From the NCBI RefSeq assembly GCF_902459735.1, contig NZ_CABPRV010000008.1, positions 124,001 through 188,000 of the forward strand: 64,000 bases of DNA, written 5' to 3'. Of this stretch, positions 33,563 to 57,226 are shown one piece after another. Origin of the DNA: Pandoraea capi. Its GTDB lineage: Bacteria > Pseudomonadota > Gammaproteobacteria > Burkholderiales > Burkholderiaceae. A program made the position numbers and the translations under genes. The notes beneath the pieces were generated by a model, which did no database searches, was not told where the DNA came from, and saw nothing but the letters and a program-made list of their open reading frames with translations. Within the stretch, counting starts at the first letter, position 1. The number at the start of each line of letters is the position of its first letter.

Positions 33563-33577
33563 ATAGATGGCATCTAT
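33563..33577. promoter_or_regulatory. LysR-type box before mdlB (copy A)
   Basis: ATAGATGGCATCTAT: a palindrome around a single central base with T-N11-A geometry, 155 bases upstream of mdlB. Differs by one base from each of the copies at 43439-43453 (reverse strand) and 45653-45667. Confidence 0.75.
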
Positions 33578-33731
33578 CCGGCGCAGAAAAACAGATGATT
33601 TGCCTTATCCGGACGCCGTCCTTAGCATGGGTCGCATCCGGGGCGCGACGACACGGCGAGGGGTGTTGCATCGCGCATTCGTGCCTTCGTGCATGCCGCA
33701 GCCCCGGCACTCATAAGAACAGGAGACAACG

Positions 33732-34856
33732 ATGGCCAGTCCGGTCAACGTCGACGATTTTCGAGAACTGGCGAGACAGCGGCTTCCCCGCATGGTGTTC
33801 GATTACATGGAAGGCGGGGCGGAAAGCGAAAGCGGGCTGCGACACAATCGCGACGTCTTCGAAGGCGTTCGCTTTGCGCCCCGGCGTCTGGTGGACATCA
33901 GCCGCCGCGCGATCGACACCACGCTCTTCGGCAAGCCGCTGCGCGCCCCGCTGCTGATCGCGCCCACGGGTTTGAACGGCATCCTCTGGCCCCACGGCGA
34001 CATCGTGCTCGCCAGGGCTGCCGAGCGATTCGGCATCCCCTTCATCCTGTCGACGGCGTCCAATGCGTCGATAGAAGATGTGGCGCGCGCCGCCGGTGGC
34101 GACCTCTGGTTCCAGCTCTACGTCGTGCATCGGCGATTGGCCGAGCGCATGGTCAAGCGTGCGCTGGATGCAGGCTACAGCACGCTGGTGCTCACGACCG
34201 ACGTTGGCGTGAACGGCAAACGCGAGCGCGATCTTCGTAACGGCTTCGGCGTGCCGGTCCGTTACACACCGCGCACGCTGCTCGACGGGGTGCGACACCC
34301 GCGCTGGTCCGTCGATCTATTGCGACATGGTGTTCCGCAACTGGCGAACTTCGTGTCATCCGACGCGAACGATCCCGAATTGCAGGCCGCGCTCATGAGC
34401 CGGCAGATGGATGCCAGCTTCTCGTGGGACGATCTGGCAAGACTGCGCGATCTCTGGCCGCATCGATTGCTCGTCAAAGGGCTGAGTCGGGTAGATGATG
34501 CGCAGCGGTGTGAAGCGATGGGCATCGACGGCGTCATTCTGTCCAATCACGGCGGACGTCAACTGGACGGTGCCATCGCACCGTTCGAGGTGTTACCGTC
34601 AACGCGCCGGGCCGTGAAGATGCCCGTGCTCATCGACAGCGGTATCCGGCGCGGTGCGGACGTGGTCAAGGCGGTGGCGTCGGGCGCCTCGGCCGTGCTG
34701 ATCGGACGGGCGACGCTGTACGGCCTCGCAGCGCTGGGCGGGCAAGGCGTGGATGCCGTGCTGGAACTCTTCCGGGACGAGATCGACCGCACGCTGGCGC
34801 AGATCGGCTGTGCCAGCGTGGCCGAGCTGGATGCGAGCTATCTGTGGGCGTCGTAA
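33732..34856 (+). CDS. mdlB: (S)-mandelate dehydrogenase, FMN-dependent alpha-hydroxy acid dehydrogenase
   Basis: 374 residues. Oxidises (S)-mandelate to benzoylformate, passing electrons to the membrane quinone pool. From memory, long stretches agree with Pseudomonas putida MdlB: the N-terminal LARQRLPRMVFDYMEGGAE, DLWFQLYV, LTTDVGVNGKRERDL, ALMSRQMDASF and LLVKGL. The catalytic His273 lies in SNHGGRQLD (His274 in P. putida), followed by Arg276. Residues about 176-214 correspond to the loop that anchors that enzyme to the membrane and include the shared HPRWS and QLANFVSS. AGGAGA stands before the ATG. A mandelate racemase gene 10 kb away and a shared operator box strengthen the call; other lactate-type substrates are less likely. 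Confidence 0.88.
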   Translation: MASPVNVDDFRELARQRLPRMVFDYMEGGAESESGLRHNRDVFEGVRFAPRRLVDISRRAIDTTLFGKPLRAPLLIAPTGLNGILWPHGDIVLARAAERFGIPFILSTASNASIEDVARAAGGDLWFQLYVVHRRLAERMVKRALDAGYSTLVLTTDVGVNGKRERDLRNGFGVPVRYTPRTLLDGVRHPRWSVDLLRHGVPQLANFVSSDANDPELQAALMSRQMDASFSWDDLARLRDLWPHRLLVKGLSRVDDAQRCEAMGIDGVILSNHGGRQLDGAIAPFEVLPSTRRAVKMPVLIDSGIRRGADVVKAVASGASAVLIGRATLYGLAALGGQGVDAVLELFRDEIDRTLAQIGCASVAELDASYLWAS

Positions 34857-34930
34857 CCCACGACGCCCCACAACTCCCCTTGATGGCGGCGTCGCTACCC
34901 GGCAGTACCTTCTGCCGGACGGCGACGCCG
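34847..34930. terminator. Hairpin pair between convergent mdlB and iorB
   Basis: GGCGTCGT/ACGACGCC (34847-34867) spans the mdlB stop codon. Then a nested stem follows: outer CGGCGTCGC/GCGACGCCG (34887-34895, 34922-34930), inner CCGGCAG/CTGCCGG with a 6-base loop. All arms are perfect. Likely stops transcripts from both sides. Confidence 0.6.
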
Positions 34931-34964
34931 TAGCACCGGCCTCAGACTCCGTGGCGCAACAGCA

Positions 34965-36521
34965 TCAGGCCCGCTTGGGATTGGGCGAGAAGCGAATCGG
35001 CCGGGCCTGAATCTCGGGCGCGGGAAGCCCAAGCGTCTTCGCCAGCGTACGGCTCTCGGGGTCGGCCAGCGCGGCACGCCGTGCGGCCTGCAGCCGCGTT
35101 ACCTGCTCGGCATTCGTGCGTGTACCGGGCTTCGTCACATCATCGAGAATGCTGCGCAAGTTGGCTCGCCCGCGAAGATGCGTCTGCCCGTAGCCCTTGA
35201 CGAGATTGCCGCACAGCGCCAGCTCGTACGCGAGCGCCGCCGAGCGCGGCAGTGCTGCGCGAATCGCCGCCAGCCATTCGCCGATCAGTGCCTGCTCTTC
35301 ATGAAAACGTGCCGAATGCCGTCGCCAGCGTCGCAGGCTGCGCAACGCAACCAGCATCGCGAACCCCGAAATGCTCGTCGTCTTCACGTGAAGGCCCACG
35401 TGGACGTCTGCGCCCCGACGCTGTCCCCAGCGGCGCACGAGACTCGCCATGCCCTTCGGCAGGACCGAACACAGCTCCTCGATGCCGGGCTTGAGATACT
35501 CGACCAGCATCACCGGTTCGTCCGGCTTTGCACCGACCTCCGCCCGCACGCGCTGAAGGCGTTCGCGCCGCGTCTTCAGATCGGCCACCCGGATCACGTC
35601 TTCGTAGCTCATCCACAAGGCGAGATAGCGCGCCGCCTCCAGCGACACGGGATACCCCGCCGCACCACCGCCAGCATCGCGCTCAAGGGCGACGATCTCG
35701 TCGACCCGGCCGAGATAGGTCTCGACGTAACGCGCGTCCTGATAGTCCCCGACCTGATCGATGCCCGCCGAGAGAATGGTGCGCAACGCCTGGGGATAGG
35801 CAGCCAACCGCGCGGACAGCTTGCCCTCGCGCGCCGGTGCGGCCCCCTGCTGCGCCGGCTTCGCGCTCAGCGTTGGTTGCCCGCCCGATACCGCGAGGGC
35901 GTAACCGGCGGCGAAGCCGGCCAGACTGGCCTGCACGGCCTTGCCGGTGCGACGAATGGCTTCCTCGCACGCGGCGCGCGACAGCGGCAGCGCACCCGCA
36001 CCGACCAGCGCCCCGAACATCACCGTATTGATGACCGTACCGTTGGCGAGCGCGAGGGCGCGCAAGTCGCCGAACACCGCCGTACGCGCGAGTTGTGTGG
36101 CGGCATCGACGATCGGTTGCGTGTCGTAACGACCGTCGCCCATGGCGGTCTTTTCGACCACCGCATACTCGCGATGGGTCGACGCGACCAGCGTGGTGCG
36201 CCCCGGCGTGACCCAGCCGCGCTGGATCGCACGCCCGGCTTCGACGATCTCCGACGCCACCACGGCGTCCACACTGCCCGGGCTGGGCGTGAGCGACAGA
36301 ATCGGTTCCTTGCCGCCGAGTTCGCTGCGAGGCTGCGGGAAAATTTCGACGTAGTAGGTCGTGGCCCCCGTGCGTTGCGCGACCCCGGGGATCGATGTGC
36401 TCTGCACCGGAAAGTCGTGCTGATTCGCCGCTTCGATCAGCCAGTCGGTCAACACGCCGCCGCCCTCACCGCCCAGTGCGGCGATCAGCACGGTGACGCT
36501 ACGCGTTTTGCTCACTGCCAT
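34965..36521 (-). CDS. iorB: Indolepyruvate-type 2-oxoacid oxidoreductase, beta subunit (gamma domain plus DUF6537)
   Basis: 518 residues. The first 190 residues are the pyruvate ferredoxin oxidoreductase gamma domain (ALGGEGGGVLTDWLIEAA, then QSTSIPGVAQRTGATTYY), which binds CoA and helps close the active site; the rest matches the extra helical domain found in long IorB proteins of proteobacteria. Overlaps the end of iorA by 10 bases, so the two are made together. IorAB enzymes turn aryl-2-oxoacids into aryl-CoA thioesters. Context (mandelate genes) suggests benzoylformate as substrate; that part is inference. Confidence 0.83.
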   Translation of the reverse strand: MAVSKTRSVTVLIAALGGEGGGVLTDWLIEAANQHDFPVQSTSIPGVAQRTGATTYYVEIFPQPRSELGGKEPILSLTPSPGSVDAVVASEIVEAGRAIQRGWVTPGRTTLVASTHREYAVVEKTAMGDGRYDTQPIVDAATQLARTAVFGDLRALALANGTVINTVMFGALVGAGALPLSRAACEEAIRRTGKAVQASLAGFAAGYALAVSGGQPTLSAKPAQQGAAPAREGKLSARLAAYPQALRTILSAGIDQVGDYQDARYVETYLGRVDEIVALERDAGGGAAGYPVSLEAARYLALWMSYEDVIRVADLKTRRERLQRVRAEVGAKPDEPVMLVEYLKPGIEELCSVLPKGMASLVRRWGQRRGADVHVGLHVKTTSISGFAMLVALRSLRRWRRHSARFHEEQALIGEWLAAIRAALPRSAALAYELALCGNLVKGYGQTHLRGRANLRSILDDVTKPGTRTNAEQVTRLQAARRAALADPESRTLAKTLGLPAPEIQARPIRFSPNPKRA

Positions 36522-38659
36522 GCCTGCCTCCGGGCGCTGCCCGCCATGCGATCGATCACGAAATTACGGAAACCGGCCGAAATACGATCCCATCGCGTCG
36601 GGTTCTGAATCACTTCGGCCTTGTAGAAAGACGGGCAAAGAATCGCCGCGTGCGAGACTTCACCGCAAAGACCGCAGCCCACGCATCCCTGATTGACGGT
36701 CGCGACGGGATCGGTCCGCAAGGCGCTCGGGTTGTCCTTGATCGTCAGCGACGGGCAGCCGGACAACCGTATGCACGAGTGATCGCCCGTGCACACGTCG
36801 TCGTCGATGCCGAAGCGGGTGCGCACCACGCGCTTTCCGCCCTTGAGCCGCGCGGCCTGTTGCGGCTTGATGCGACGCTGACGCTCCAACTGGCATTCGC
36901 CATCCGCAATCACGACCTTCAAACCGGGGGCCTGCGTCGTCACCGCGTCCGTCAGCGTCTTCACCATGTCGCCGACCTGATAGCTCGGCACCGTACGGAT
37001 CCAGTCCACGCCCACACCGCGCAGCGCCTTCTCGATGTCCAGCGACTTCGGAATTGCCTGGCTCGATACGGTGGACGGAATCTCCTGCGTACCTGTGGCC
37101 GACGTATAGCCGTTCTTCATGATGACGAGCACCGAATCCTGCTCGTTGTGGACCGCGTTGACGACACCCGAGGTGAACCCGTTGTGCCAGAAACCGCCGT
37201 CGCCCATGATGCTCACCACGCGGTTGCGCATGAGGGGCGCGACCCCGGACGAACTCGCCAGCCCAAGGCCATAGCCGAGCACCGTACTGCCGACGTTGAA
37301 CGGCGGCAGCGTGCCAAACGTGTGACAGCCGATGTCCGCACTCACATGCACCGCGCCGACCTTCTCCTGCATCAGCTTCATCGCCGCGAATACCGGCCGC
37401 TCCGGACAACCGACGCAAAAGCCCGGCGGACGGCTCGGCACCGGCGCCGCGCCCAGCGCCTGCGCCCCTTGCGTGCGCTGCGCCACCAGCGCTGCGCCGA
37501 GGTCGCCAACGCCCGCGACATCGAGGCCGGCCGGACGCGTCGCGTCGATGAACCGGGCAACGCCATCGACCAGCACCTCGCCCGTGTATTCGCCATAGGC
37601 CGGCAGCATGTCCTTGCCGTGAACGGCAGTCATCGCGCCCGAGCGCCGCAGAATCGCCTGAATCGCGTCTTCGATGTAGGCCGGTTGCCCTTCCTCGACC
37701 AGCAGCACCGACTGTTTGCCTTCGCAGAATTGTTCGATTTCGTCGGCAACCAGCGGATACACCACGTTGAGCACGTGAATCGGAATGTGCGGCTCGCCGA
37801 AGGCATCTGCGAGTCCGAGCTGTTGCATCGCGCGGATCAGGCCGTTGTAAAGGCCGCCCTGCACGATGATGCCGACGTCCTGACACCGCGCACCGGCAAA
37901 CGTCTCGTTGAGCTTTGCGCGACGAATGTAATCGACGGCTGCGGGCCAGCGGTCTTCGATCTTCTGCTTCTCGTGGACGTAGGTCGACGGCGGCAGACAG
38001 ATCTTGTCGTAGCTGACCTGCGCATCGTCGATCAGATGATCGCGCGAGATCGCGGGTGCGCGGTTGTCCTTGCTCACGAACGCGCCATGCACATGGCAAG
38101 CGCGAATGCGCAGTTGCAGCATCACCGGCGTGCTGCTCGCCTCCGACAGCTCGAAGCCCTGCTCCACCATGTCGACGATGGACGTCAGGTTCGGTCTCGG
38201 ATCGAGCAGCCACAATTGCGACTTCATCGCGAACGCATGCGTGCGTTCCTGAATGATGCTCGACCCTTCGCCGTAATCTTCGCCAAGGATGACGACCGCG
38301 CCGCCCTTGACACCGGCCGACGCCAGATTGGACAGCGCGTCGGACGCCACGTTGGTCCCGACCGTCGACTTCCACGTGACGGCGCCGCGCACGGGATAGT
38401 GGATCGAGGCGCCGAGCATCGCCGCCGCCCCCGCTTCGGACGCATTGTTCTCGAAATGAATGCCTAGCGAATCGAGCAGTTCACGCGCGTCGCCCAGCAC
38501 ATCGATCAGATGCGAGACGGGCGCGCCCTGATAGCCGCCGATATAGCTCACGCCCGATTGCAGCAGCGCCTTGGTGACGGCGAGGATGCCTTCGCCGTGA
38601 AAGACTTCTCCCGCCCCCATCGAGAGACTCTCCACCTCTCGCTTGAAAGACCGTTCCAT
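36512..38659 (-). CDS. iorA: Indolepyruvate-type 2-oxoacid oxidoreductase, alpha subunit
   Basis: 715 residues. Domains in order: pyrimidine-binding thiamine domain (YIGGYQGAPVSHLIDVL, with the catalytic Glu region FENNASEAGAAAM), transketolase-C-like domain, TPP pyrophosphate domain with GDGGFWHNGFTSGVVNA (the GDG...N metal motif), and a C-terminal iron-sulfur domain with two cysteine groups: VCTGDHSCIRLSGCPSL and GCVGCGLCGEVSHAAILCP. The start at 38659 follows GGAGAG; an ATG 12 codons upstream lacks one. It lies 71 bp behind livF on the same strand. Decarboxylates a 2-oxoacid and conserves the acyl group as a CoA ester while reducing an acceptor. Confidence 0.86.
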   Translation of the reverse strand: MERSFKREVESLSMGAGEVFHGEGILAVTKALLQSGVSYIGGYQGAPVSHLIDVLGDARELLDSLGIHFENNASEAGAAAMLGASIHYPVRGAVTWKSTVGTNVASDALSNLASAGVKGGAVVILGEDYGEGSSIIQERTHAFAMKSQLWLLDPRPNLTSIVDMVEQGFELSEASSTPVMLQLRIRACHVHGAFVSKDNRAPAISRDHLIDDAQVSYDKICLPPSTYVHEKQKIEDRWPAAVDYIRRAKLNETFAGARCQDVGIIVQGGLYNGLIRAMQQLGLADAFGEPHIPIHVLNVVYPLVADEIEQFCEGKQSVLLVEEGQPAYIEDAIQAILRRSGAMTAVHGKDMLPAYGEYTGEVLVDGVARFIDATRPAGLDVAGVGDLGAALVAQRTQGAQALGAAPVPSRPPGFCVGCPERPVFAAMKLMQEKVGAVHVSADIGCHTFGTLPPFNVGSTVLGYGLGLASSSGVAPLMRNRVVSIMGDGGFWHNGFTSGVVNAVHNEQDSVLVIMKNGYTSATGTQEIPSTVSSQAIPKSLDIEKALRGVGVDWIRTVPSYQVGDMVKTLTDAVTTQAPGLKVVIADGECQLERQRRIKPQQAARLKGGKRVVRTRFGIDDDVCTGDHSCIRLSGCPSLTIKDNPSALRTDPVATVNQGCVGCGLCGEVSHAAILCPSFYKAEVIQNPTRWDRISAGFRNFVIDRMAGSARRQAWQ

Positions 38660-38730
38660 ACTCTCTCCCACGAACCTCTGAACCCGCCGCATCACTGCCC
38701 CATCGGGCGAGCGTGCGGCGGAACGTTTGT

Positions 38731-39564
38731 TTACATCCCCAGATAAGCCTGTTTGACGCGTTCGTCGCCCAGCAACTCGCTACCGGTGCCCGACACCACG
38801 ATCCGGCCCAGTTCCATCACGTATCCGTAGTCGGCAATGGAGAGCGCCGCGTGGGCGTTCTGCTCGACAAGGAGGATCGGGATGCCGGACGCGCGCAACC
38901 GTTTGATGACGTCGAACACTTCCTGCACGAGCTTGGGTGAAAGCCCCATCGACGGCTCGTCGAGCAACATCAGCCGGGGACGGCACATCAGCCCCCGCCC
39001 GATCGCCAGCATCTGCTGCTGCCCGCCGGACAACGTGCCGGCCAGTGCCTGACGCTTTTCGACCAGCGCCGGAAAGATGTCGTACACGCGCGCCATTTCC
39101 ACGTCCCGGTCGGCGCTACCCAGGGTGTAGCCGCCCAGAATCAGGTTCTCCTCGACGGTGAGACCGGCGAAGACCTGTCGTCCCTCCGGCACGTGCGCCA
39201 TGCCCCGGGCGACGCGTTTGTCGGCACGCAGACGCGAGATGTCTTCGCCGTACAGACGCACGCCTCCCCCGGACGCCGACACCACGCCGGACAACGTGCG
39301 AAGCAGCGTCGTCTTGCCCGCGCCGTTGGCACCGACCAGCGTGACCAGTTGTCCCGACGTCACGGAAAAGTCCACGCCGAAGAGCGCCTGAATGCGTCCG
39401 TATCCTGCCGTCAGACCGCTCACCTCCAGCACCGGACGAGGCTGACTGCCCGCTGCGCCGTCGGGCGAGCCTGGCTTCGTCGGGCGCGTGTGCAGCGCGA
39501 CGTGCATCGGCTCGGCCGTGCGCGCCACGCCTTGCATTGGGGTATCCACTCTCGATACGTTCAT
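38731..39564 (-). CDS. livF: Liv-type ABC importer ATPase LivF
   Basis: 277 residues: Walker A GANGAGKTT, signature LSGGQQQM, Walker B LMLLDEPSMGL, HPEGRQ-type loop VPEGRQVFAG typical of LivF. A 45-residue N-terminal extension (MNVSRVDTPMQGVARTAEPM...) precedes the ATPase fold. ATG overlaps the livG stop as ATGA. Last importer gene before iorA. Confidence 0.9.
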   Translation of the reverse strand: MNVSRVDTPMQGVARTAEPMHVALHTRPTKPGSPDGAAGSQPRPVLEVSGLTAGYGRIQALFGVDFSVTSGQLVTLVGANGAGKTTLLRTLSGVVSASGGGVRLYGEDISRLRADKRVARGMAHVPEGRQVFAGLTVEENLILGGYTLGSADRDVEMARVYDIFPALVEKRQALAGTLSGGQQQMLAIGRGLMCRPRLMLLDEPSMGLSPKLVQEVFDVIKRLRASGIPILLVEQNAHAALSIADYGYVMELGRIVVSGTGSELLGDERVKQAYLGM

Positions 39565-40316
39565 GCCATGGCTCCCAGATACGCCGCGACGACCGCCGGA
39601 TTGCTGCGGATCTCCTGTGCATTGCCTTGCGCGAGCACCTTGCCGAAATCGAGCACGAGAATCCGGTTGGCAATCGCCATGACCATGTTCATGTCGTGCT
39701 CCACGAGCATGACCGTCACCCCTTCGTCGGCAACGCGCCGGATCAGCTCGCTGATCTGTGCGGTGTCGGTATGGTTCAGCCCGGCAGCCGGCTCGTCGAG
39801 CAGCAACAGGCGCGGGCGGGCCGCGAGCGCCCGGGCGATTTCAAGACGCTTGAGCGCACCGAACGGCAAGCCCTGTGCGGGCGAATCGGCGTACTGGCTC
39901 ACTCCGGCGAACTTCAGGCATTCGCGCGCATGATCGCGGGCTTCGGCTTCAGCACGCGCGAGCTTCCGTCCGTAGAACATGCCGGCCAGCACGCCGTGGT
40001 TCAGGCGCAGATGCGCGCCCAGCATCACGTTCTCCAGCACGCTCAGATTCATTGCGACCTGAAGGTTCTGGAACGTGCGGCTCATGCCGAGCCTGGCCAG
40101 TTGTTCGGGTGCCTTGCCGCCGATCTCACCGCCGTCCATGCGCACATGGCCGCTCGACGGGGTGTAGACACCGGTAATGACGTTGAACAGTGTGGTCTTG
40201 CCGGCGCCGTTCGGCCCGATGACGGCATGAATGTCTCCGGCCTGCACCGAGAAGCTCAGATCGTCGATGGCAGTCACGCCGCCGAAACGCATGCTCAGAT
40301 GGTCGACCTGTAGCAT
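39561..40316 (-). CDS. livG: Liv-type ABC importer ATPase LivG
   Basis: 251 residues: Walker A GPNGAGKTT, FQNLQ, signature-region LPFGALKRLEIARAL, Walker B LLLLDEPAAGL, switch LVEHDMNMVM. The canonical LSGGQ is replaced by PFGALKR, as usual in LivG. Start at 40316 overlaps the livM stop (TGATG) with GGGAGG five bases before; a GTG directly ahead is less well spaced. Confidence 0.9.
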   Translation of the reverse strand: MLQVDHLSMRFGGVTAIDDLSFSVQAGDIHAVIGPNGAGKTTLFNVITGVYTPSSGHVRMDGGEIGGKAPEQLARLGMSRTFQNLQVAMNLSVLENVMLGAHLRLNHGVLAGMFYGRKLARAEAEARDHARECLKFAGVSQYADSPAQGLPFGALKRLEIARALAARPRLLLLDEPAAGLNHTDTAQISELIRRVADEGVTVMLVEHDMNMVMAIANRILVLDFGKVLAQGNAQEIRSNPAVVAAYLGAMA

Positions 40317-41254
40317 CACGACCTCCCGCGCATGAAGCGATTGGCCAGCGTCGGGACGATGCCGCGCGGCAGGAAGATCATCGTGACCATCAGCACCAGA
40401 CCGAAGAGGATCAGCTCATACTCCTGAAGCCCGCCGAAGAGTTGAGGCAGCAACACGATGAGTGCTGCGCCGAGCACGACACCGAACGTCGACGCCATAC
40501 CGCCCACCACCACGATCGTGGCCAGTTGCACGGACGACATGAAGCTCGCGAGTTGCGGCGTAATGAAGCCGGTGTAATGCGCGAGCAATCCCCCTGCGAG
40601 ACTGGCGATCACCGCCGAGAGGACGAATACCCGCGCCTTGAATGCCGTGGCGTCGACGCCCATCACCCGAGCCGCCACCTCCGTGCCGTGCAGCGCCCGC
40701 AAGGCCCTGCCCGCCGGGGAGATGTACAGATTGAGCGACAGCACCACGACGATCACGAGCAGCACGGCCGCCGCGACATACCACGCCATCGGCGTTTCCA
40801 GCGTCAGCGAACCGATGCCGAACGGCCCGACCGCCATGCCGTCCGGGCCGCCCGTCAGCGCCCCCTCGTTGATGAGCACCAGATTGACGATGATGCCCAG
40901 ACCGAGCGTGGCCATGGTGAGCGAATGGCCGCGCAGTCGCAGCATCGGGCGCGCAATGATCCACGCGACGATGCCGGTCCCCACCGCACCGCACACCAGC
41001 GCGGCTGACGGCGGCAGGTTGTAGGTGGTGGTGAGAATGCCGCTCGCGTAGCCGCCCATCGCCACAAACGCTGCGTGGCCGATGCTGATCTGACCGGCGA
41101 AGCCCATGAGCAGATTCAGTCCCACGGCGATCATGCCCGCGAACAGAATGCGAATCGCCACGTCCAGCATGAACGCGTTCGGCAACAGCCACGGCAATAC
41201 GGCGAGTACGACGATGCCCAACCAGACGGAGCGGGCAAACAGATGGTTTTTCAT
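40316..41254 (-). CDS. livM: Liv-type ABC importer permease LivM
   Basis: 312 residues, about ten membrane segments, with the LivM pattern GLNLLMGFAGQISIGHAAFVAMGGYASGIL and GRALRALHGTEVAARVMGVD. ATG overlaps the livH stop as ATGA. The frame continues open upstream but only as a shadow of livH, so this is not a fusion. Confidence 0.9.
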   Translation of the reverse strand: MKNHLFARSVWLGIVVLAVLPWLLPNAFMLDVAIRILFAGMIAVGLNLLMGFAGQISIGHAAFVAMGGYASGILTTTYNLPPSAALVCGAVGTGIVAWIIARPMLRLRGHSLTMATLGLGIIVNLVLINEGALTGGPDGMAVGPFGIGSLTLETPMAWYVAAAVLLVIVVVLSLNLYISPAGRALRALHGTEVAARVMGVDATAFKARVFVLSAVIASLAGGLLAHYTGFITPQLASFMSSVQLATIVVVGGMASTFGVVLGAALIVLLPQLFGGLQEYELILFGLVLMVTMIFLPRGIVPTLANRFMRGRS

Positions 41255-42123
41255 ACGCGCTCCGTCAGTCGGCCGCCGAAGATGCCGCGCGGCATCAGCA
41301 GCAGGACACCGATGATCATGATGAAAGGCACGGCATCCTTGTAGGCAGACGACACATAGCCCGCGATCAGCGCTTCGAGCAGCCCCACCAGCAGGCCGCC
41401 GACGACAGCGCCCGCGCCGCTGCCCAGTCCGCCGAGCGATGCCGCAACGAACCCCTTCATCCCGAGCATCAGGCCGAGGTCGTACACGGTCGTCGTGATC
41501 GGTGCGGCGGTGATGCCGGCGATCGCGCCGAGCAGTCCCGCCAGCCCGAACGACAGCAGCGTCACCACATGCGCCGGAATGCCCACGAGTTGCGCGGCAG
41601 AGCGGTTCATCGCCACGGCCCGGATCGCACGACCGATCAGCGTCTTTTTGAAGAACAGCGCGACGAGCACCATCAGCACGGCCGCGACACCGATGATCCA
41701 CAGGCTCTGCGGCAGCAGTCTCGCCCCGGCGAACTCCAGCGGCGTGTCGCCGGAGAACGACGGCAACGTGTGCTGGTTCTTGCCGAGCAACAGTTGCGTG
41801 CCGCCTTGAATGAAGAGCGACGCCCCGATGGTGATGATGATCAGCGTGAGCGGATCGGCGCGGCCCGCCGGCGCAATGCCGAAACGTTCGAGCGCACCGG
41901 CGACACAGGTCGTGGCGACGATGGCAATGCCCGCAGCGAGCAGCGGATGTACCTGAAGCTGGATCAACGCCACCGTCACCATGCCGCCGAGCATGACGAA
42001 ATCGCCCTGTGCGAAGTTGATGACGCCACTGGCGTTGTAGACGATCGTGAAGCCGAGGGCCACGAGCGCATAGATCGCGCCCACGGTCACACCGGCCATC
42101 ACGAATTGCAGAAAGTCGTGCAT
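41251..42123 (-). CDS. livH: Liv-type ABC importer permease LivH
   Basis: 290 residues, about eight membrane segments: GAIYALVALGFTIVYNASGVINFAQGDFVMLGG is the LivH signature. GAGGA seven bases before the ATG. Second gene of the operon, 70 bp behind the binding-protein gene. Confidence 0.9.
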   Translation of the reverse strand: MHDFLQFVMAGVTVGAIYALVALGFTIVYNASGVINFAQGDFVMLGGMVTVALIQLQVHPLLAAGIAIVATTCVAGALERFGIAPAGRADPLTLIIITIGASLFIQGGTQLLLGKNQHTLPSFSGDTPLEFAGARLLPQSLWIIGVAAVLMVLVALFFKKTLIGRAIRAVAMNRSAAQLVGIPAHVVTLLSFGLAGLLGAIAGITAAPITTTVYDLGLMLGMKGFVAASLGGLGSGAGAVVGGLLVGLLEALIAGYVSSAYKDAVPFIMIIGVLLLMPRGIFGGRLTERV

Positions 42124-42193
42124 GACGCATTCCTCACGACGAACGCGAAGCGCAGCGCCACCGGGCAGCGCCTCGCGCGAGATTGGAGACGGC

Positions 42194-43354
42194 TTACCTG
42201 GCCGCGACGAAGCGGCCGCCGCGAATCTCGACCATCCGGAACGCGCTGCTGTTCAGGCCCATATGGTCCGTCGGCGACATGGTGTACACGCCGCTCACGC
42301 CGACGAAGTTTTTCGTCTGCTCAAGGGCGTCGCGTACCTTCGCCTTGTCGGTCGAGCCGGCACGCTTGATCGCATCGGCCGCCATCATCAATCCGTCATA
42401 GGCGTAGCCGCCGAACGTGGAGACGTCCTGCTTGTACTTCGTCTCGTAGGCGAGCTTGTATTCGAGGCTGACCTGCCGTTGCGGATCGTTCGTCGAGAGT
42501 TGCTCGGCGATCAGCAGTGCGGGCGACGGCATGCGCACCCCTTCGGCGGCTGCGCCGGCAATACGGATGAACTCCGCCGATGCCTGCCCGTGCGACATGT
42601 AAAGCGGCACGCTCAGACCGAGCTGATGGAAGTTCTTGGCAATGATCGCCGGAGCCTGACCGGTCCCGAAGACAAACACCGCTTGCGGATTGGCGGCGCG
42701 CGCCTTGGTGAGTTGCGGCGTCATGTCCGCATCGCGCTCCCCGTAGCTCTGGTCTTCGACGATGGTCAGTCCGAGCCGCTTGGCCGCCTTGATGGTTTCG
42801 TTGCGACCCGACTTCCCGAAGCCGCCCGTGTCGGAGAGCAGTGCGACGCGCGTGATGCCGTGCTGCTTCATGTCTTCGAGCACTTTCTCTGCCGCCATCG
42901 TGTCCGAGTGCGGGACTTTGAAGACGTAAGGCTTGACCGGATCGACGATGACCGTCGCGGCCGCCAGCGAGACCGTCGGCACCTTGTTGGCGCTCGAAAG
43001 CGGCGCCATCGCCATCGTCGAGCCCGTGGTGGACGCACCGAGAATCAGATCGACCTTGTCCTGCAGGATCAGTCGCTTCGCCATGGCATTCGCCGTGTTG
43101 GCGTCGCTGCCATCGTCATAAACCGTTAGGACAACTTGACGACCGAGAATGCCACCCGCGGCATTGATCTTATCCACGTACTGATTCAGCGTCTTCTGCT
43201 CGGGATCGCCGAGAAACGACGCGGCGCCGGTTGCCGAGACCACAGCACCGATGCGAATCGGATCGGCAGCGTGGCTGGGGGGTGCCAGGGAAAAGGCGAG
43301 AAAGGGAACCACGGTCGCAGCAACGCGCGACGTGAAAGTCGTCAAGCGGGGCAT
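42194..43354 (-). CDS. Periplasmic binding protein of the Liv-type importer (mandelate candidate)
   Basis: 386 residues. Signal peptide of about 29 residues (MPRLTTFTSRVAATVVPFLA...PPSHA before A), then the type-I binding fold beginning DPIRIGAVVSATGAASFLGDPEQKTL. Homologues bind branched-chain amino acids but also many aromatic acids such as benzoate or mandelate-like compounds. GGAGAC six bases upstream fixes the start at 43354. First gene of livKHMGF-iorAB; divergent from lysR with the shared box in between, so mandelate or a related hydroxy acid is the likely ligand. Confidence 0.87.
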   Translation of the reverse strand: MPRLTTFTSRVAATVVPFLAFSLAPPSHAADPIRIGAVVSATGAASFLGDPEQKTLNQYVDKINAAGGILGRQVVLTVYDDGSDANTANAMAKRLILQDKVDLILGASTTGSTMAMAPLSSANKVPTVSLAAATVIVDPVKPYVFKVPHSDTMAAEKVLEDMKQHGITRVALLSDTGGFGKSGRNETIKAAKRLGLTIVEDQSYGERDADMTPQLTKARAANPQAVFVFGTGQAPAIIAKNFHQLGLSVPLYMSHGQASAEFIRIAGAAAEGVRMPSPALLIAEQLSTNDPQRQVSLEYKLAYETKYKQDVSTFGGYAYDGLMMAADAIKRAGSTDKAKVRDALEQTKNFVGVSGVYTMSPTDHMGLNSSAFRMVEIRGGRFVAAR

Positions 43355-43408
43355 GTTGTCTCCAGGTTGTTCTGTTTTGTGAGGCGAGTATAGAAATCGC
43401 TCGACGCA

Positions 43409-43433
43409 CAAATCAAATCGATAATATGATTTG
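43409..43433. promoter_or_regulatory. LysR-type site between the importer operon and lysR
   Basis: CAAATCA-N11-TGATTTG: perfect 7-bp arms with an 11-base spacer, in the middle of the divergent promoter. It differs from the 15-bp box 6 bases away and could be the regulator's second contact or a site for another protein. Confidence 0.6.
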
Positions 43434-43438
43434 CAAAA

Positions 43439-43453
43439 ATCGATGCCATCTAT
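43439..43453. promoter_or_regulatory. LysR-type box before lysR (copy B)
   Basis: Read on the minus strand: ATAGATGGCATCGAT, one base different from copy A at 33563. It ends 8 bases before the lysR start, a position fitting autorepression, and about 85 bases before the importer operon start. Confidence 0.72.
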
Positions 43454-43461
43454 ACGACCAA

Positions 43462-44382
43462 ATGACGCGCGCTTCGACAGGAACGACCCGGCTGGATCTG
43501 AATTTGATTAGGGTTTTCGTTAGTATTTACGAGACGGGAAGCGTGACGGCAGCCGCCTCCCGAATGTTCGTGACGCAGCCGACGGTCAGTTACGGACTGG
43601 CGAAGTTACGCGAAGCCCTGCACGATCCGCTGTTCATTCGTACGGCCGACAAGATGGTGCCCACAGCGGTCGGCGAAGCCACGTATCGAAAATTCTCGAG
43701 TGCGCTGGTCACCATCGCCAGTGCGATCGAAGCACCGCAACAGTTCGACGCGCAGACCTCCACCCGACGCTTTCGGCTGGCGATGAGCGACATCGGCGAA
43801 TTGATTTTTCTGCCGCCGATTTATGCGCGCGTCGCGTCGGCAGCGCCGCAGGTTGAAATCGAGATCGTGCAGGCGACGATCGACGAGGCGGCCAAATGGC
43901 TCGCGGCCGGCAAGGTGGATCTGGTGATCGGCAACATGCAGCTCGCCGGCGAGGGCATCCGGCGCAAGGGGCTGTTTCGCGAGCATTACGAATGCCTGCT
44001 GCGCAAGGGACATCCGGCGGCGCGGCCGAAGCTCAGTCTCACGCGCTTCGTCGAAGCGCGCCACGTCATGGTGACCTCACCGTTCTCGGGGCATTCGCTG
44101 GTCGAGCATGCGCTTCGCCAGCACAGCGTGAGCCGCCGTATCGTCATGCAGATCCTGCATTTCACGATCCTGCCGCAGTTGCTCGCGTCGAGCGATCTGA
44201 TGGCGACGGTGCCGTCGCGCGTGGGACAGTATTTCGAACAGCTCGCACCGCTGCGCTCCGTGCCGCTACCCATCGAGATCGAACCGTTCGAAGTCGGCAT
44301 GTACTGGCACGAATTTCAGGATGACAACCCGGCGCATGCCTGGATGCGCGATCTCGTCGACGACGCCCTCTCGCGCATCTGA
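43462..44382 (+). CDS. LysR-family regulator of the mandelate genes
   Basis: 306 residues. Helix-turn-helix in residues about 12-70 (LDLNLIRVFVSIYETGSVTAAASRMFVTQPTVSYGLAKLREALHDPLF), of the NodD/LeuO-like type, then the effector domain (RRFRLAMSDIGELIF). ATG at 43462 is preferred to one 12 codons earlier, which would place the operator box inside the coding region. Divergent from the importer-iorAB operon and convergent with mdlA. Three copies of a T-N11-A box at lysR, mdlB and mdlA make it the likely regulator of all three, responding to mandelate or benzoylformate. Confidence 0.85.
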   Translation: MTRASTGTTRLDLNLIRVFVSIYETGSVTAAASRMFVTQPTVSYGLAKLREALHDPLFIRTADKMVPTAVGEATYRKFSSALVTIASAIEAPQQFDAQTSTRRFRLAMSDIGELIFLPPIYARVASAAPQVEIEIVQATIDEAAKWLAAGKVDLVIGNMQLAGEGIRRKGLFREHYECLLRKGHPAARPKLSLTRFVEARHVMVTSPFSGHSLVEHALRQHSVSRRIVMQILHFTILPQLLASSDLMATVPSRVGQYFEQLAPLRSVPLPIEIEPFEVGMYWHEFQDDNPAHAWMRDLVDDALSRI

Positions 44383-44486
44383 CCTCGACGGCCTTCGCGG
44401 GATGGTCGCAACATCCAGTCATGACGCCCCGTCACGACGGCCGTCCGCGACGGTCGGCGGCCCCGCTGAGGCCCATCACCTGAGCG

Positions 44487-45569
44487 TCAGACGCTGTACC
44501 TCTCGACCGCGTCTTCCTTCCAGACGAAGCCCGCGCCGGGCCTGTCGCCGATGTGAGCATGACCGTCGCGGAACGTCAGCGACGAGTCCACGACCGGCCC
44601 CGCCAGATCCATGCGTTCGAGCCAGTGACACGTTGGCGTAACCGCCAGCAGATGCGCGCTGAACTCCTGGAAGATATGGCTCGACATCGGCAGACCGTGA
44701 CACTCGGCCAGCGTGCGTGCACGCAGCCAGCCGCTTACCCCGCCGATCTTCATTAAATCCGGCATGCACAGATCGCACGCCTGCGCCTTGAGTGCGAGCG
44801 ACATCTCCTCGACACCGAACCAGTTCTCGCCCATCTGCACCGGCGTGGCAATCGCTTCGCGAATCTTGCGATGACCGTCGTAGTCGTGCTGTAGCGTCGG
44901 CTCCTCGATCCAGCCGAGCCCTTCGGACGCGAGCGCCCGGGAACGCTGTATCGCTTCGGGCACGCTCAGTCCCTGGTTGTAGTCGACCAGAATCTCCACG
45001 TGGTCGCCGACCGCGTGACGAATGGCGCGGATGACGTCCAGATCCTGCGCCAGACTGGCGTATCCGATTTTGGTCTTGATCGCGCGATAGCCGGCGTCGC
45101 TCGCGTCGTGCGCGCGACGCACCGCGAGGTCCACGCCGTCCATGCTGTGACTGTCGTACGCCGGAATCGGGCGCGCGCGGCCGCCGAGCACTTCGACCAG
45201 CGGGGCGTTCAGTGTCTTTGCGTAGGCGTCCCAGATCGCCATGTCGAGTCCCGCGCTGGCCATCCGGATCAGGCCCGTGTTGCCGACCAGCCGGAAACGC
45301 GCTTGCAGCAGTTGTTCGATGGTGTGGGGCGACAGCGGCTGCCCGGCCACGAGCGGAGCCAGCGCATCGATCATGGCCTGCGTCGCCTTGAGCGCCAACG
45401 GCGTGTAGGTGAACACATAGGCGTGACCGACGACACCGCTGTCCGTCTCCAGATCGATCAGCACCAATGGCGCCGTCGCCACCACACCGACCGCCGTAAT
45501 CACCGGGTATTGCAGGGGTACATTGACCGCGCGCGTCCGAAGACCGGTCATCCGGATATCCGATTCCAT
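44487..45569 (-). CDS. mdlA: Mandelate racemase
   Basis: 360 residues (359 in P. putida). Interconverts (R)- and (S)-mandelate by proton abstraction at the alpha carbon; Mg-dependent, enolase superfamily. The N-terminal [16 protein letters not shown] matches the P. putida enzyme, as recalled, nearly residue for residue. All catalytic residues are in place with numbering shifted by one: Lys165 and Lys167 (AIKTKIGY), Asp196 and Asn198 (VDYNQ), Glu222 ([11 protein letters not shown]), Glu248 (MGENW), His298 (SSHIFQE) and Glu318 (WLERMDLAG). The ATG at 45569 gives the family length; ATGs 11 and 20 codons upstream are possible but unsupported. The LysR box lies 84 bases upstream. Confidence 0.93.
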
Positions 45570-45652
45570 CGATGTCGTCCCGACTGTGAAAGTGGGCTTC
45601 ATCCTATGAGCCTGCGCGGCGAGAGGCAAATCGACAGATTCGCGATGGCCGG

Positions 45653-45667
45653 ATAGATGGCGTCTAT
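45653..45667. promoter_or_regulatory. LysR-type box before mdlA (copy C)
   Basis: ATAGATGGCGTCTAT: one base different from copy A, same palindrome and T-N11-A geometry. It stands alone between the flavin reductase stop and mdlA, 84-98 bases before the mdlA start. Confidence 0.75.
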
Positions 45668-45733: not shown

Positions 45734-46369
45734 TTACATCTCATCGACCGCCGTCGTGGCCGTGGGCTGACCGTCTTGCTGTTCCAGCGAGAAGCGATTG
45801 CGGGTATCGACGTAGAAGCTCGCGCCAAAGCGGCCCACGGGGAAATAGTTCTGCAAACGCACTCGCCAGGTCTGCGTGTCGATCAGCTCTTCGCGTGCGT
45901 GCATACGCTCGACGCGTCCAATGAAGATATGGCGGCTCGGTGTCTCCAGCGTCTCCCACAACGTGCATTCGAACGCCACCGGCGCCTCGGCGATGCGGGG
46001 CGGCGCGACGAGACTGCTCGGTACCGGCGTGAGCCCCGCGTGCGCCAGTTCACTCTCGCTCGGCGGCAGACGCTCCCCGCACGCGTGCATGCGGGCGGTC
46101 ATCGCCTCGTCCGTCAGGTGCACGACATACTCCCGGTCGCGCAGGATGTTTGTCGCCGTGTCCTTGAGCGTGTCGTCGTCGAGCCGGTTGATCGAGAGCA
46201 TCACGATCGGCGGTTCTTCGCCGAGCATGTTGAACATCGAAAACGGTGCGGCGTTGACGGTGCCCCCGTCGTTGATCGTGGTGACGAGCGCAATCGGACG
46301 CGGCACGATCAGGCTCGCCATCAGTTTGTAACGCTGGTACGCCGTGATTTCGCGGAAGTCGATTTCCAT
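45734..46369 (-). CDS. Flavin reductase family protein (FMN-binding split barrel)
   Basis: 211 residues. [50 protein letters not shown] is the flavin-reductase-like pattern of the branch that includes proteins of unknown role beside oxygenases and hydrolases. GAGGAGA precedes the ATG; nine bp behind the GntR gene, so in one operon with it and the deacetylase. No flavin-dependent oxygenase is encoded next to it, so its partner is unclear. Confidence 0.83.
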
Positions 46370-46378
46370 GCGATCTCC

Positions 46379-47161
46379 TCAGGCACGCTTGCGGCCAGCG
46401 CGTTTGACCGGGGGCGCGGACGGGGACGATGAAGGGGACGACGAAGGGGAAGGAGGCGACATCGTGTCCTGCGCTGCCGCGACCTCCGGCAAGCCGAGCA
46501 ACGACGCCAGGCTCTTCTGCCCGCGCATCCGGGTCGTCTCTATACGACGCTCTAGCTCTTCGAGATGCGACTGCATCCGGGCAATGGCGCCGGGGGCATC
46601 GCGCTGCTCGATGCACGCCACGATGGCGGTGTGTTCGTCGTGCTCGCAGGGCGCGTAACCGGGCGGCTCGTATAACCCCACGATCAGCGAGCACCGCGAG
46701 ATCAGCTCGGTGAGATAACGCAGCAACACGGCATTGCCCGCAAGCGCCGCCACACGCAGGTGAAAATCGCTCGCCAGACGCGCCCACGACGGCTGATCGA
46801 AACGGTGCATGGCTTCGTGCTCGGCGTCGAGCTGACGGCGCAGCATGGCGAGATCGTCGTCGGTCACCCGCGAGACTGCCAGTTCAACCAGCGAACGCTC
46901 CAGCGCACGCCGCGCTTCGAAAATCTCTCGTGTTTCCTCCGGCGTCGGCTCGGCGATCACAGCGCCCTTGTTCGGCCTGAGCGTGACAATGCCGTCGTGC
47001 GCCAGACGCTCCAGCACCCGCCGCACCACCGCGCGTCCGACGTCGAACAGCTGGCAAAGCTCCGGCTCGGGCAGCTTCGTGCCGGGCGTGAGGCGATGCG
47101 CGAGCACGCCGTCGACGATGGTGCGGTAGATGTGCGTCTCGATGCGCGTCTCGGCGCTCAT
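46379..47161 (-). CDS. GntR-family regulator, FCD (FadR) type
   Basis: 260 residues from the ATG at 47161. Winged helix (THIYRTIVDGVLAHRLTPGTKLPEPELCQLFDVGRAVVRRVLERLAHDGIVTLRPNKGA) then the FCD helical ligand domain with its metal-site region (DFHLRVAALAGNAVLLRYLTELISRCSL and CEHDEHTAIVACIEQRD). The C-terminus is a Ser/Pro repeat ending KRAGRKRA. The frame stays open for 83 more codons to a GTG at 47410 with YCPACPDCGK, but third-base composition there is unlike the gene body, so I take the shorter form. Likely repressor of this operon and the divergent importer. Confidence 0.8.
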   Translation of the reverse strand: MSAETRIETHIYRTIVDGVLAHRLTPGTKLPEPELCQLFDVGRAVVRRVLERLAHDGIVTLRPNKGAVIAEPTPEETREIFEARRALERSLVELAVSRVTDDDLAMLRRQLDAEHEAMHRFDQPSWARLASDFHLRVAALAGNAVLLRYLTELISRCSLIVGLYEPPGYAPCEHDEHTAIVACIEQRDAPGAIARMQSHLEELERRIETTRMRGQKSLASLLGLPEVAAAQDTMSPPSPSSSPSSSPSAPPVKRAGRKRA

Positions 47162-47416
47162 CGCCTCATCGTTCGCGACCGGCAGGTGCAACGAGAGAAG
47201 ACGGGTTTCGGTGTCACCGTCGTGGACCGTAGTGGCAGTGGTGGCAGTAGGGGCAGTGGGGGCCGCTGGGCGGCGCGCACGGGAAACAGGCTTGTCTGCT
47301 GGCATGACGGGCGTAGTGGGCAAGGACGATGAAGGCACTGAGGGCACTAAAGGAAGTAGAGACAACTTTCCACAGTCGGGACACGCCGGGCAATAGGATT
47401 TGAGTGTCACGCTGGC

Positions 47417-48421
47417 TCACCCCATGACGGCATCTGGCTCGGCGACACTGACGGACGCCACGTGCGCGGCGATGTCGCCCGGCGTCGCCACCCAGATCTC
47501 GCCGCGCTGCGCAGCCTGCGCGATGGGCGTGAGCACGCGTCGCAGATGCCGCAGGCGGTAAGGCTGCCCGACCAGATACGGGTGCAGCGCAATGCCCATG
47601 ACCAGCGGCTGGCCTCGCGTCGGATGCTCCGCCTGAGCGTACATCTCGTCGAAATTGTCCGCGATCATGTCGGCAAACGCTGCGCCGTCCATCTGACGGC
47701 CGATGATCATCGGAATATCGTTCACCTCCTGCGGATAGGGCACCGACCACAGGGTCCCGTGCGCCGTACGCATGCGCACCGGACGGTCGTCGTGACACCA
47801 GTTCAGCGTATAGCCATAGCCGGTGCGCACCAGCAGGTCCGGCGTGTGGTGCGTCTCCGAGATCCATGGCGAAAGCCACCCCGACGGCGTGTAGCCCGTC
47901 GCTTCCGTCAATCGCGATCGGCAATGTGCCAGCAGCTCCCGCTCGTGCGCGCACTCGAAATCGCTTTGCCGATGCGCGTTGGTGTGACCGTGACCAATCA
48001 GCTCATCGCCGCGCGCCACGCAGGCATGCACGAGTTCGGGACAGTGATCGAGCAGCGCCGTGTTGAGCACGACACCCGCGCGCATCGCGAGATCACCGAA
48101 CAGATCGAGGCATCGCCATGCGCCGACCCGGTTGCCGTACTCGCGCCAGCTGTAGTTGAGCACGTCGGGCTGCGGCGAGACCGGGCCGAGATTCGCGCCC
48201 AGCCCTTCCCCGAACGCGAAGTGCTCCAGATTGAAGCCGAGATAGACGGCGAGTCGCGCGCCGTTGGGCCAGCGATACGTATCGCGCGCCGTGATCGGCA
48301 GATAGTCGAAGCGATCGTGCGAACGCAATGCGCCGAAGCGAACGTCGGGCACATCGTGCACGTCATGTACGTCGGTGGTCGCGAAATCGTCAGGTGATGA
48401 AAGCGGCAGGGTCAGAGTCAT
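47417..48421 (-). CDS. Polysaccharide deacetylase family protein, PuuE/allantoinase-like
   Basis: 334 residues of the NodB-type metal hydrolase fold. The chain ARLAVYLGFNLEHFAFGEG, GDELIGHGHTNAH and the late LVMGIALHPYLVGQPYRL resembles the cofactor-poor allantoinase PuuE group, which opens ring amides rather than acting on polysaccharides. An acidic repeat DVHDVHDVPDV lies near the N-terminus. The start at 48421 has only a weak AAGACG. First gene of the operon deacetylase, GntR, flavin reductase; divergent from the fused ABC importer. Confidence 0.82.
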   Translation of the reverse strand: MTLTLPLSSPDDFATTDVHDVHDVPDVRFGALRSHDRFDYLPITARDTYRWPNGARLAVYLGFNLEHFAFGEGLGANLGPVSPQPDVLNYSWREYGNRVGAWRCLDLFGDLAMRAGVVLNTALLDHCPELVHACVARGDELIGHGHTNAHRQSDFECAHERELLAHCRSRLTEATGYTPSGWLSPWISETHHTPDLLVRTGYGYTLNWCHDDRPVRMRTAHGTLWSVPYPQEVNDIPMIIGRQMDGAAFADMIADNFDEMYAQAEHPTRGQPLVMGIALHPYLVGQPYRLRHLRRVLTPIAQAAQRGEIWVATPGDIAAHVASVSVAEPDAVMG

Positions 48422-48488
48422 CGTGTGTCGTCTTGAAACATTCGCGCACCGCCACAGTGCGGGCGCGTTCCGAGTTGGCGCAAAACGC

Positions 48489-48543
48489 ATCGTCAACGAA
48501 CGTCATACCAGATCGTTCGCAATTTCGATGCCAGATCGTCAAC
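48489..48543. promoter_or_regulatory. Direct repeats in the divergent promoter
   Basis: CCAGATCGT occurs at 48508-48516 and 48531-48539, and ATCGTCAAC at 48489-48497 and 48535-48543, all in the same orientation in the 298-bp gap between the deacetylase gene and the importer gene. Possible sites for the GntR regulator. Confidence 0.45.
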
Positions 48544-48719
48544 ACCTTGGCGTGCATATCGTGTGACGCCATTCATTCGAAATGTCGACGAGGTGGCATG
48601 CCTCTTGCGTACGGCGGGGACATAGCGGGTCGTGCCCGTTGCCGGGATGCCCGACCATCCCTTCCCTTCGCATCCGACGTGTCGCTCTGACATGTCACAT
48701 GTCATTACGGAGATTGCTC

Positions 48720-49982: not shown

Positions 49983-50076
49983 GCAGGGCATCAGCAAAAC
50001 ACATCGACCGGACGAATTCGTCACACGACACCGGCAATGAACGGGCGCCACGGTGTGGCGTCCCGGAGGACATCTC

Positions 50077-55563: not shown

Positions 55564-55975
55564 ACGTTTTCCCCCTCGAACATCGCATCTAAGAACGACT
55601 TCTCCCTACTGCGCTGCCAGCATCGCGCTGACACCCGTCCGAGCGCCCCCCTCCCGCCCGTCAGTCCGTTGACGACCTTCGATTACTCCGGATTCTAGTC
55701 AATACCGCATACAGGTCAATATTGACCGACGATCGACCGTCCTGAGCGCGCCGTCCCACCCGGATCGCTTCGCCCCCAAACGTTTCCTGCCATCGCGCCG
55801 TTGCCTGCCGATGATCCACAGATCGTGGACGATCGGTGTACACCCCGGCCGTTGTTCCTCCCCTCGCTGCGCCGTATCGTCCATCCACGGTGTTGCCCCG
55901 TCGTCTGCCCGGCAGGCAAACGGCGCGCAACGGCGCTTTGGATTGACAAGGATTCGGAAGACACGAGGATTGAGC
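55564..55975. other. Non-coding gap before the enolase-superfamily gene
   Basis: About 410 bases with no convincing gene. It includes the palindrome at 55714-55727 and two GTCAATA direct repeats. Open frames through it are GC artefacts of the downstream gene. Confidence 0.5.
55714..55727. promoter_or_regulatory. Palindrome upstream of the enolase-superfamily gene
   Basis: GGTCAATATTGACC, perfect over 14 bp; a further GTCAATA lies 16 bases to its left. About 250 bases before the start at 55976. Probably a GntR- or LysR-type site. Confidence 0.45.
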
Positions 55976-57130: not shown

Positions 57131-57226
57131 TCTGCGCGACAGATCGACGGCACCCCTCGACAATACGAACAAAACAACAGGGGCGCGCGCGGTTCAGGCG
57201 CGCCTCGTCAGCAGGAGACACGCAGT

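Follow-up and report, generated by a model that had tools for sequence, protein, structure and literature searches.

The window, a 64,000-nucleotide stretch of the Pandoraea capi genome (contig C8; the genome measures 5.85 Mb in 31 contigs), carries a gene cluster that almost certainly serves as a pathway for mandelate, a plant acid. The cluster appears to form a mandelate regulon, in which three transcription units would be controlled by a single LysR-family regulator. A Liv-type ATP-binding cassette (ABC) importer may take up mandelate or a close arylacid, the racemase MdlA would interconvert (R)- and (S)-mandelate, and the dehydrogenase MdlB would turn the (S) form into phenylglyoxylate. 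The two-subunit enzyme IorAB, with thiamine diphosphate (ThDP) and iron–sulfur clusters, could then convert phenylglyoxylate and coenzyme A (CoA) into benzoyl-CoA and CO2 by oxidative decarboxylation, and benzoyl-CoA would presumably enter the box pathway, whose genes are found elsewhere in the genome. IorAB would in this way stand in for benzoylformate decarboxylase, benzaldehyde dehydrogenase, and the ATP-using benzoate-CoA ligase. This reading of the regulon, the pathway, and the IorAB product as a whole is considered probable, and so, from genomic context, is the function of IorAB as a phenylglyoxylate oxidoreductase in place of MdlC and MdlD. The role of IorAB is proposed because of a shared operator, the exchange of mdlC for iorAB among related loci, the clade of IorA, an isatin-linked sister class, and the presence of box genes in a genome without BenA, and also because a BoxR-like gene follows iorAB in another genome, G341, and the regulator MdlR of Paraburkholderia hospita answers to S-mandelate and phenylglyoxylate. 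The first-pass annotation of this region had described a pathway for mandelate comprising a racemase, a dehydrogenase, an importer, and a regulator, and had placed a Liv-type importer, iorAB, and a LysR gene between mdlB and mdlA. These genes are all present as open frames and the pathway is supported, but no role had been given to IorAB and the shared operator had been missed.

MdlA aligns without gaps to the Pseudomonas putida mandelate racemase in a PDB sequence search (3uxk, E 2.7e-148, residues 22-379). The nine positions that we take to be catalytic or metal-binding in the P. putida enzyme (K164, K166, D195, N197, E221, E247, D270, H297, and E317) are all identical, and 17 of the 19 positions checked are the same, the differences being L298 to Ile and L319 to Met; the constant offset of one claimed in the first-pass annotation holds with Met1 at 45569. 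Likewise, MdlB aligns without gaps to the P. putida (S)-mandelate dehydrogenase (6bfg, E 3.9e-159, residues 5-371) and, therefore, spans the region that presumably forms the membrane segment. Nine of the ten positions checked in this enzyme are identical; for the tenth, the number used (K231) is at odds with the numbering of the full-length protein, and the alignment shows the Lys of LVKGL to be conserved. The dehydrogenase hallmarks that had been ascribed to mdlB, including the membrane-loop region, are thus recovered. Both proteins fall with mandelate-locus enzymes in the phylogenies, rather than with the non-mandelate homologues whose company would have spoken against the assignment: MdlB lies within a clade of mdlC-linked dehydrogenases (starred, 100), and MdlA among the racemases of mdl loci, apart from homologues of 42-50% identity. 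From this close homology, it is likely that MdlA racemises mandelate and that MdlB oxidises (S)-mandelate to phenylglyoxylate. Among 32 genomes of the genus, MdlA (E<=1e-60) was found only in that of the window.

A 15-bp palindrome lies upstream of mdlB, of mdlA, and of the importer-iorAB operon, that is, at all three promoters. It is of the T-N11-A type, which we take to match LysR sites, and it seems likely that the window LysR binds it. A search of the window with the first copy, allowing up to three mismatches, returned these three sites, as six matches on both strands, and no others, whereas 100 shuffles of the window gave a mean of 0.41 matches and at most 3. Genome-wide, the 14-bp pattern TAGATGNCNTCTAT occurs exactly only before mdlB and mdlA; allowing one mismatch brings in the LysR site along with six scattered others, while the reversed control gave two. 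Moreover, each of the 19 mdlC loci tested has the same site (up to two mismatches) 89-103 bp upstream of its MdlC match, exact in 11 of them, and the site is also found before mdlC in L007 (89 bp, exact) and in L207, L212, and L213 (92-93 bp, one or two mismatches), hence in 23 of 23 mdlC loci altogether. The distances in the window depend on the start codons chosen, and two of them (98 and 99 bp) fall within this range. The 19 mdlC loci contain 24 hits in 392,802 bases, against 2 hits in 553,951 bases of 32 control stretches, some of which overlap, that carry other iorAB genes, both of these hits being just upstream of LysR genes. Variants of the site with one or two mismatches also occur in the stretch before iorA in the other loci that join iorAB to mdl genes (hereafter ior-mdl loci) and in G341. 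The window LysR is 43-47% identical to mdlC-adjacent LysRs of Burkholderiales and 37-40% to those of Rhizobium. In P. hospita, where the cluster is of mdlC type, the MdlR/PmdlC pair responds, according to the available part of the report, to S-mandelate and phenylglyoxylate and not to R-mandelate (PMC10204090). As a separate observation, the binding protein gene in L020 (7540-7680) and L021 (7590-7730) is preceded by strong palindromes of the AAATTTTC type. A divergent open frame resembling a helix-turn-helix regulator adjoins them, and this control differs from the ATAGAT palindrome.

The distribution of mdlC and iorAB was compared across 35 mdlA loci, namely the window and 34 others with an MdlA homologue of at least 56% identity; 27 of the latter came from plasmid and genome collections (L007 and L022 being one record) and seven from family genomes, in which seven of the 14 stretches fetched duplicated loci already counted. 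In 23 of the 35, mdlC stands beside mdlB and mdlA, and none of these has an intact linked iorAB; in five, including the window, iorAB is present and mdlC is not. The four other loci of this kind, three from Variovorax and one from Bordetella, carry iorAB, the binding protein, mdlB, livHMGF, and mdlA, so that the layout is not singular to the window (one of them, L028, belongs to a metagenome-assembled genome, its iorB and livG matches being split and its livM match short). Two loci are incomplete, the P. elongata locus L047, with iorB beside remnants of mdlB and mdlA, and L204, which is cut by a contig end. With these two omitted, iorAB is linked in 0 of 23 loci with mdlC and in 5 of 10 without it (p 0.001), a value that is no fair probability, since the loci share descent (K84, L023, L024, and L025 are near copies); an earlier table of 19 and 7 loci had given p 0.0003, and the loci added later weakened the result. 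At the genome level, an MdlC of at least 66% identity is present in 16 of 16 mdlC-type genomes and in none of nine other genomes or records. In P. ultramafica (L012:11202-13430), mdlCBA is followed by an mdlD match in three pieces in different frames and then by a partial IorB (38% identity, half length), as if the locus had once switched pathway type. Elsewhere, one R. rhizogenes K84 plasmid stretch (L008) combines mdlCBA and an aldehyde dehydrogenase with genes whose annotations name benzoate and catechol dioxygenases.

IorB scores 580.7 bits with the indolepyruvate oxidoreductase beta family model NF006179 (cut-off 348), whereas IorA reaches 292.7 bits of the 650.9 set for TIGR03336, the indolepyruvate:ferredoxin oxidoreductase alpha equivalog; a PDB sequence search returned no significant relative of either subunit. 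In the IorA tree, the window protein falls in a clade (starred, 100) with the four IorAs of the other ior-mdl loci and that of G341, to which it is 74-77% identical. Family-wide, IorA is matched at E<=1e-100 in 46 of 398 genomes, all of them, except those of the window and G341, at about 55-66% identity, and across the order relatives occur in 43 of 399 genomes (E<=1e-200), with only the window at 70% or more; no mdlA or mdlB match was found in 15 stretches around these order-wide relatives, some of which ended at contig ends. In G341, a BoxR-like gene directly follows iorAB (L088:8078-8998; 360.3 bits, cut-off 204), besides another at its box genes. In three stretches of the same order (L189, L191, and L198), iorA is matched twice within a short distance and on the same strand, at 59-62% and 62-67% identity, and iorB once.

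The sister class of IorAB, which is widespread and makes up the family-wide matches at about 55-66% identity, points in the same chemical direction. An isatin hydrolase-like gene of the cyclase family, with its metal motif, occurs in 10 of the 13 regions fetched, and the one protein compared (L091) has solved isatin hydrolases as its closest PDB relatives (5nmp, E 8.5e-137). The product of isatin hydrolase, isatinate, is 2-aminophenylglyoxylate. Of the other three, L095 carries thioesterase and hydroxylase genes, both of which are absent from L092, and L097 is cut off by the end of its contig. Genes for thioesterases or salicylyl-CoA 5-hydroxylase-like enzymes, which act on aryl-CoA, are present in 5 of the 13 regions and also in annotated plasmid regions. 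An arylglyoxylate role of the sister class is, therefore, suggested by its neighbours. The IadA and IadB proteins of auxin loci bear names given to such proteins, with no step assigned in the accessible part of the study (PMC9613470). In an excerpt of another study, strains overexpressing iadC-K2, a construct that by its name omits iadAB, accumulate C8H7NO3, the formula of isatinate (PMC12633357).

The fate of benzoyl-CoA is supported by the rest of the genome, in which boxA, boxB, boxC, the semialdehyde dehydrogenase, benzoate-CoA ligase, and a BoxR-type regulator all score above their model cut-offs. They lie on contig C4, and no BenA above the cut-off was found in the genome (best 111.6 against 780.95); on the evidence of these searches, benzoyl units thus have no route other than benzoyl-CoA. 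All six whole genomes that have mdlA in a locus of the ior or binding-protein type contain BoxB, as do 8 of 16 genomes of mdlC type; it is also present in G341 and G403, and absent from plasmid W01.

Several observations weigh against this interpretation. The 17 mdlC-linked rows of the LysR tree form a starred clade that does not include the window LysR, and the BoxB distribution (p 0.051) does not significantly separate the locus types, so that no claim is made from it. G341 has IorAB of the mdl type yet no MdlA match at E<=1e-100, and catalysis by any IorAB of the class is deduced from context. Furthermore, according to the same excerpt, anthranilate was restored by iadC-K2 alone (PMC12633357), and therefore the sister enzyme would be non-essential there. 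Five mdlA loci (L020, L021, L206, L208, and L217) lack both linked mdlC and linked iorAB, so that half of the ten complete mdlC-less loci are also without iorAB, three of them belonging to the loci added later. The Terasakiella and Phaeospirillum loci carry the binding protein, mdlB, and mdlA with neither mdlC nor iorAB. L206 and L208 contain mdlA without mdlB, plus a second MdlA-like match of 26%, and L217 has mdlA and a partial mdlB; no linked mdlC, iorAB, or operator site was found in these three. The exchange of mdlC for iorAB is somewhat weakened by these loci, but the overall assessment stays as it was, given the operator and the fact that no locus has the two together intact.

Finally, the main counter-argument is an unlinked homologue of benzoylformate decarboxylase, which lies on another contig (G000:C3:352665-354227) with an adjoining aldehyde dehydrogenase gene. 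It is the best MdlC homologue of the genome (44% to K84 MdlC) and scores 844.5 bits with NF005485 (cut-off 493), compared with 825 for K84 MdlC itself, and homologues of this type could serve mandelate. On this basis, the chemistry might be classical with scattered genes, the unlinked decarboxylase forming benzaldehyde for the neighbouring dehydrogenase and IorAB serving arylpyruvates, which would agree with the indolepyruvate oxidoreductase models being its best matches. However, the mandelate operator is absent from a 16-kb stretch around this gene, whereas IorAB stands under the shared operator and is present in five mdlC-less loci. Moreover, three genomes with a true mdlC also carry full-length decarboxylase homologues of 43-46% identity, one with an internal stop, which suggests another job for them. 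This alternative is, therefore, regarded as unlikely. No linked mdlC was found in the window cluster, and family scans of the cluster proteins returned no aldehyde dehydrogenase, no search of the window or genome with K84 MdlD having been made.

More doubtful is the possibility that the same architecture handles a ring-substituted mandelate, such as hydroxymandelate, to yield a substituted benzoyl-CoA: the L298I and L319M changes in MdlA would allow for it and substrate range cannot be read from sequence, but the conservation of the remaining MdlA positions, including every catalytic one, and the finding of box, a benzoyl-CoA pathway, as the ring pathway at the CoA level argue for mandelate itself. 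A side reaction of IorAB, for instance the scavenging of phenylpyruvate to phenylacetyl-CoA when mandelate-type acids are present, is highly improbable; a related IorAB adjoins PaaG in a Phaeospirillum genome (392.9 bits, cut-off 345.15), so that some relatives may make phenylacetyl-CoA, but the IorA concerned lies outside the ior-mdl clade and PaaG is not matched in window positions 20001-60000.

With regard to the origin of the cluster, the window MdlB shares 69-75% identity with the mdlC-type MdlBs of Burkholderiales, against 45-51% with those of ior and Terasakiella type, and joining it to the ior-type proteins was rejected (p-AU 0.0226). Since an MdlB of mdlC-linked type thus stands together with an IorA of ior-mdl type, the window is read as mixed in descent, and it is best understood as the union of an mdlB with a binding protein-liv-ior module that has a different ancestry; mdlA perhaps shares the descent of mdlB. 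MdlA groups with racemases of mdlC type at an unstarred 83/89, and a tree that places it with the ior-type ones was not rejected (p-AU 0.244); it is not decisive as proof of mixed origin, for which the firm support comes from MdlB alone. The independent assembly proposed in the first-pass annotation therefore gains substance on the side of MdlB and IorA and is left undecided on that of MdlA.

Compared with the mandelate genes of P. putida, whose order is mdlABCD, the window has close homologues of the racemase and the (S)-mandelate dehydrogenase, but it has no linked mdlC and contains iorAB and a Liv-type importer. The phenylglyoxylate:NAD+ oxidoreductase of Azoarcus evansii, compared by description rather than by sequence, shares the proposed reaction; that enzyme is anaerobic, with several separate subunits and an NADH-linked flavin subunit. 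The aerobic box gene set of the window's genome is unlinked to the cluster. The P. hospita locus also has a LysR regulator for a mandelate cluster in the available part of its report (PMC10204090) and is likened here by description, the window operator matching the sites before mdlC in relatives. IadA and IadB (PMC9613470, likewise in part and by description) belong to the same two-subunit IorAB family; IorA of the iad-like loci is 55% (L130) and 61% (L196) identical to that of the window, the L130 protein lying in the other clade and the L196 protein not being in that tree, and ring-oxygenase genes, with an isatin hydrolase-like gene in L196, take the place of mdl genes there. In the open-licence literature searched, no paper was found describing a pathway from mandelate through IorAB to benzoyl-CoA, or tying mandelate, an ABC transporter, and indolepyruvate together. 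A text search of PMC6449761 returned no mention of mandelate. Mandelate gene expression in B. terrae is treated in the accessible portion of PMC5209427, which has no part in the present argument.

On an even balance of judgement, aerobes may contain overlooked arylglyoxylate:acceptor oxidoreductases, comprising a phenylglyoxylate clade and a sister 2-aminophenylglyoxylate clade, which would give a CoA-thioester mandelate pathway assembled more than once. If so, a widespread class now mislabelled as indolepyruvate oxidoreductase would acquire a function, including IadA/IadB of auxin-degradation loci, with the sister clade acting in isatin and auxin breakdown, and a two-subunit enzyme would be available for making aryl-CoA from arylglyoxylates. 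The textbook pathway would then have a second form that bypasses benzaldehyde and free benzoate, built with mdl genes of different descent. Such a route would conserve the energy of the oxidative decarboxylation in a thioester, avoid toxic benzaldehyde, and save the ATP spent on benzoate activation.

The features are listed in Table 1 from left to right. All named genes are open frames, and they are read as three transcription units and one regulator gene; the limits that the first-pass annotation set for the cluster are the outer edges of two palindrome copies. The importer set is complete (one binding protein, two permeases, and two ATPases), with LivG, LivM, and LivH below their model cut-offs and LivF assigned by likeness, being 61-64% identical to the matching stretches of other ior-mdl loci.

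Table 1. Coordinates of the mandelate cluster in the window.
Feature	Position	Strand	Evidence and remarks
Operator 1	33563..33577	none	Palindrome ATAGATGGCATCTAT; first base 169 bp upstream of mdlB start
mdlB, (S)-mandelate dehydrogenase homologue, 374 aa	33732..34856	+	PF01070; best PDB 6bfg; mdlC-linked clade
iorB, 2-oxoacid oxidoreductase subunit (POR + DUF6537), 518 aa	34965..36521	-	NF006179; PF01558, PF20169
iorA, ThDP-binding subunit, Cys-rich end	36512..38659	-	TIGR03336 below cut-off; PF02775; ior-mdl clade; conserved columns; start placed at conserved MERSF (open frame begins 38695)
livF, importer ATPase	38731..39564	-	Open frame; likeness to other ior-mdl loci, no family model
livG, importer ATPase	39561..40319	-	LivG model 274.5 bits, cut-off 362 (below)
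livM, importer permease	40316..41254	-	LivM model 163.2 bits, cut-off 366 (below)
livH, importer permease	41251..42123	-	LivH model 147.8 bits, cut-off 379 (below)
Periplasmic binding protein of importer, 386 aa	42194..43354	-	PF13458; nearest PDB Liv-like receptors, e.g., 3ukj
Operator 2	43439..43453	none	ATCGATGCCATCTAT; 99 bp upstream of binding protein, with LysR on the other side
LysR-family regulator, 306 aa from second ATG	43462..44382	+	PF00126, PF03466; open frame begins 43426
mdlA, mandelate racemase homologue, 360 aa from ATG 45569	44487..45569	-	PF02746, PF13378; best PDB 3uxk; open frame begins 45629
Operator 3	45653..45667	none	ATAGATGGCGTCTAT; 98 bp upstream of mdlA

Directly before mdlA and on its strand, positions 45734-48496 hold flavin reductase-like, GntR/FCD, and deacetylase-like genes, whose co-transcription with mdlA is doubtful because the operator sits in between. 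Further on, an 883-aa open frame (50952-53603) fuses a Liv-type permease to two ABC ATPase domains and is preceded by a binding protein (48582-49982) and a permease-looking open frame (50053-50955), and the stretch 55811-58522 holds another gene of the enolase superfamily (MR_MLE), with about 28% identity to mdlA, and after it a gene for an MFS transporter.

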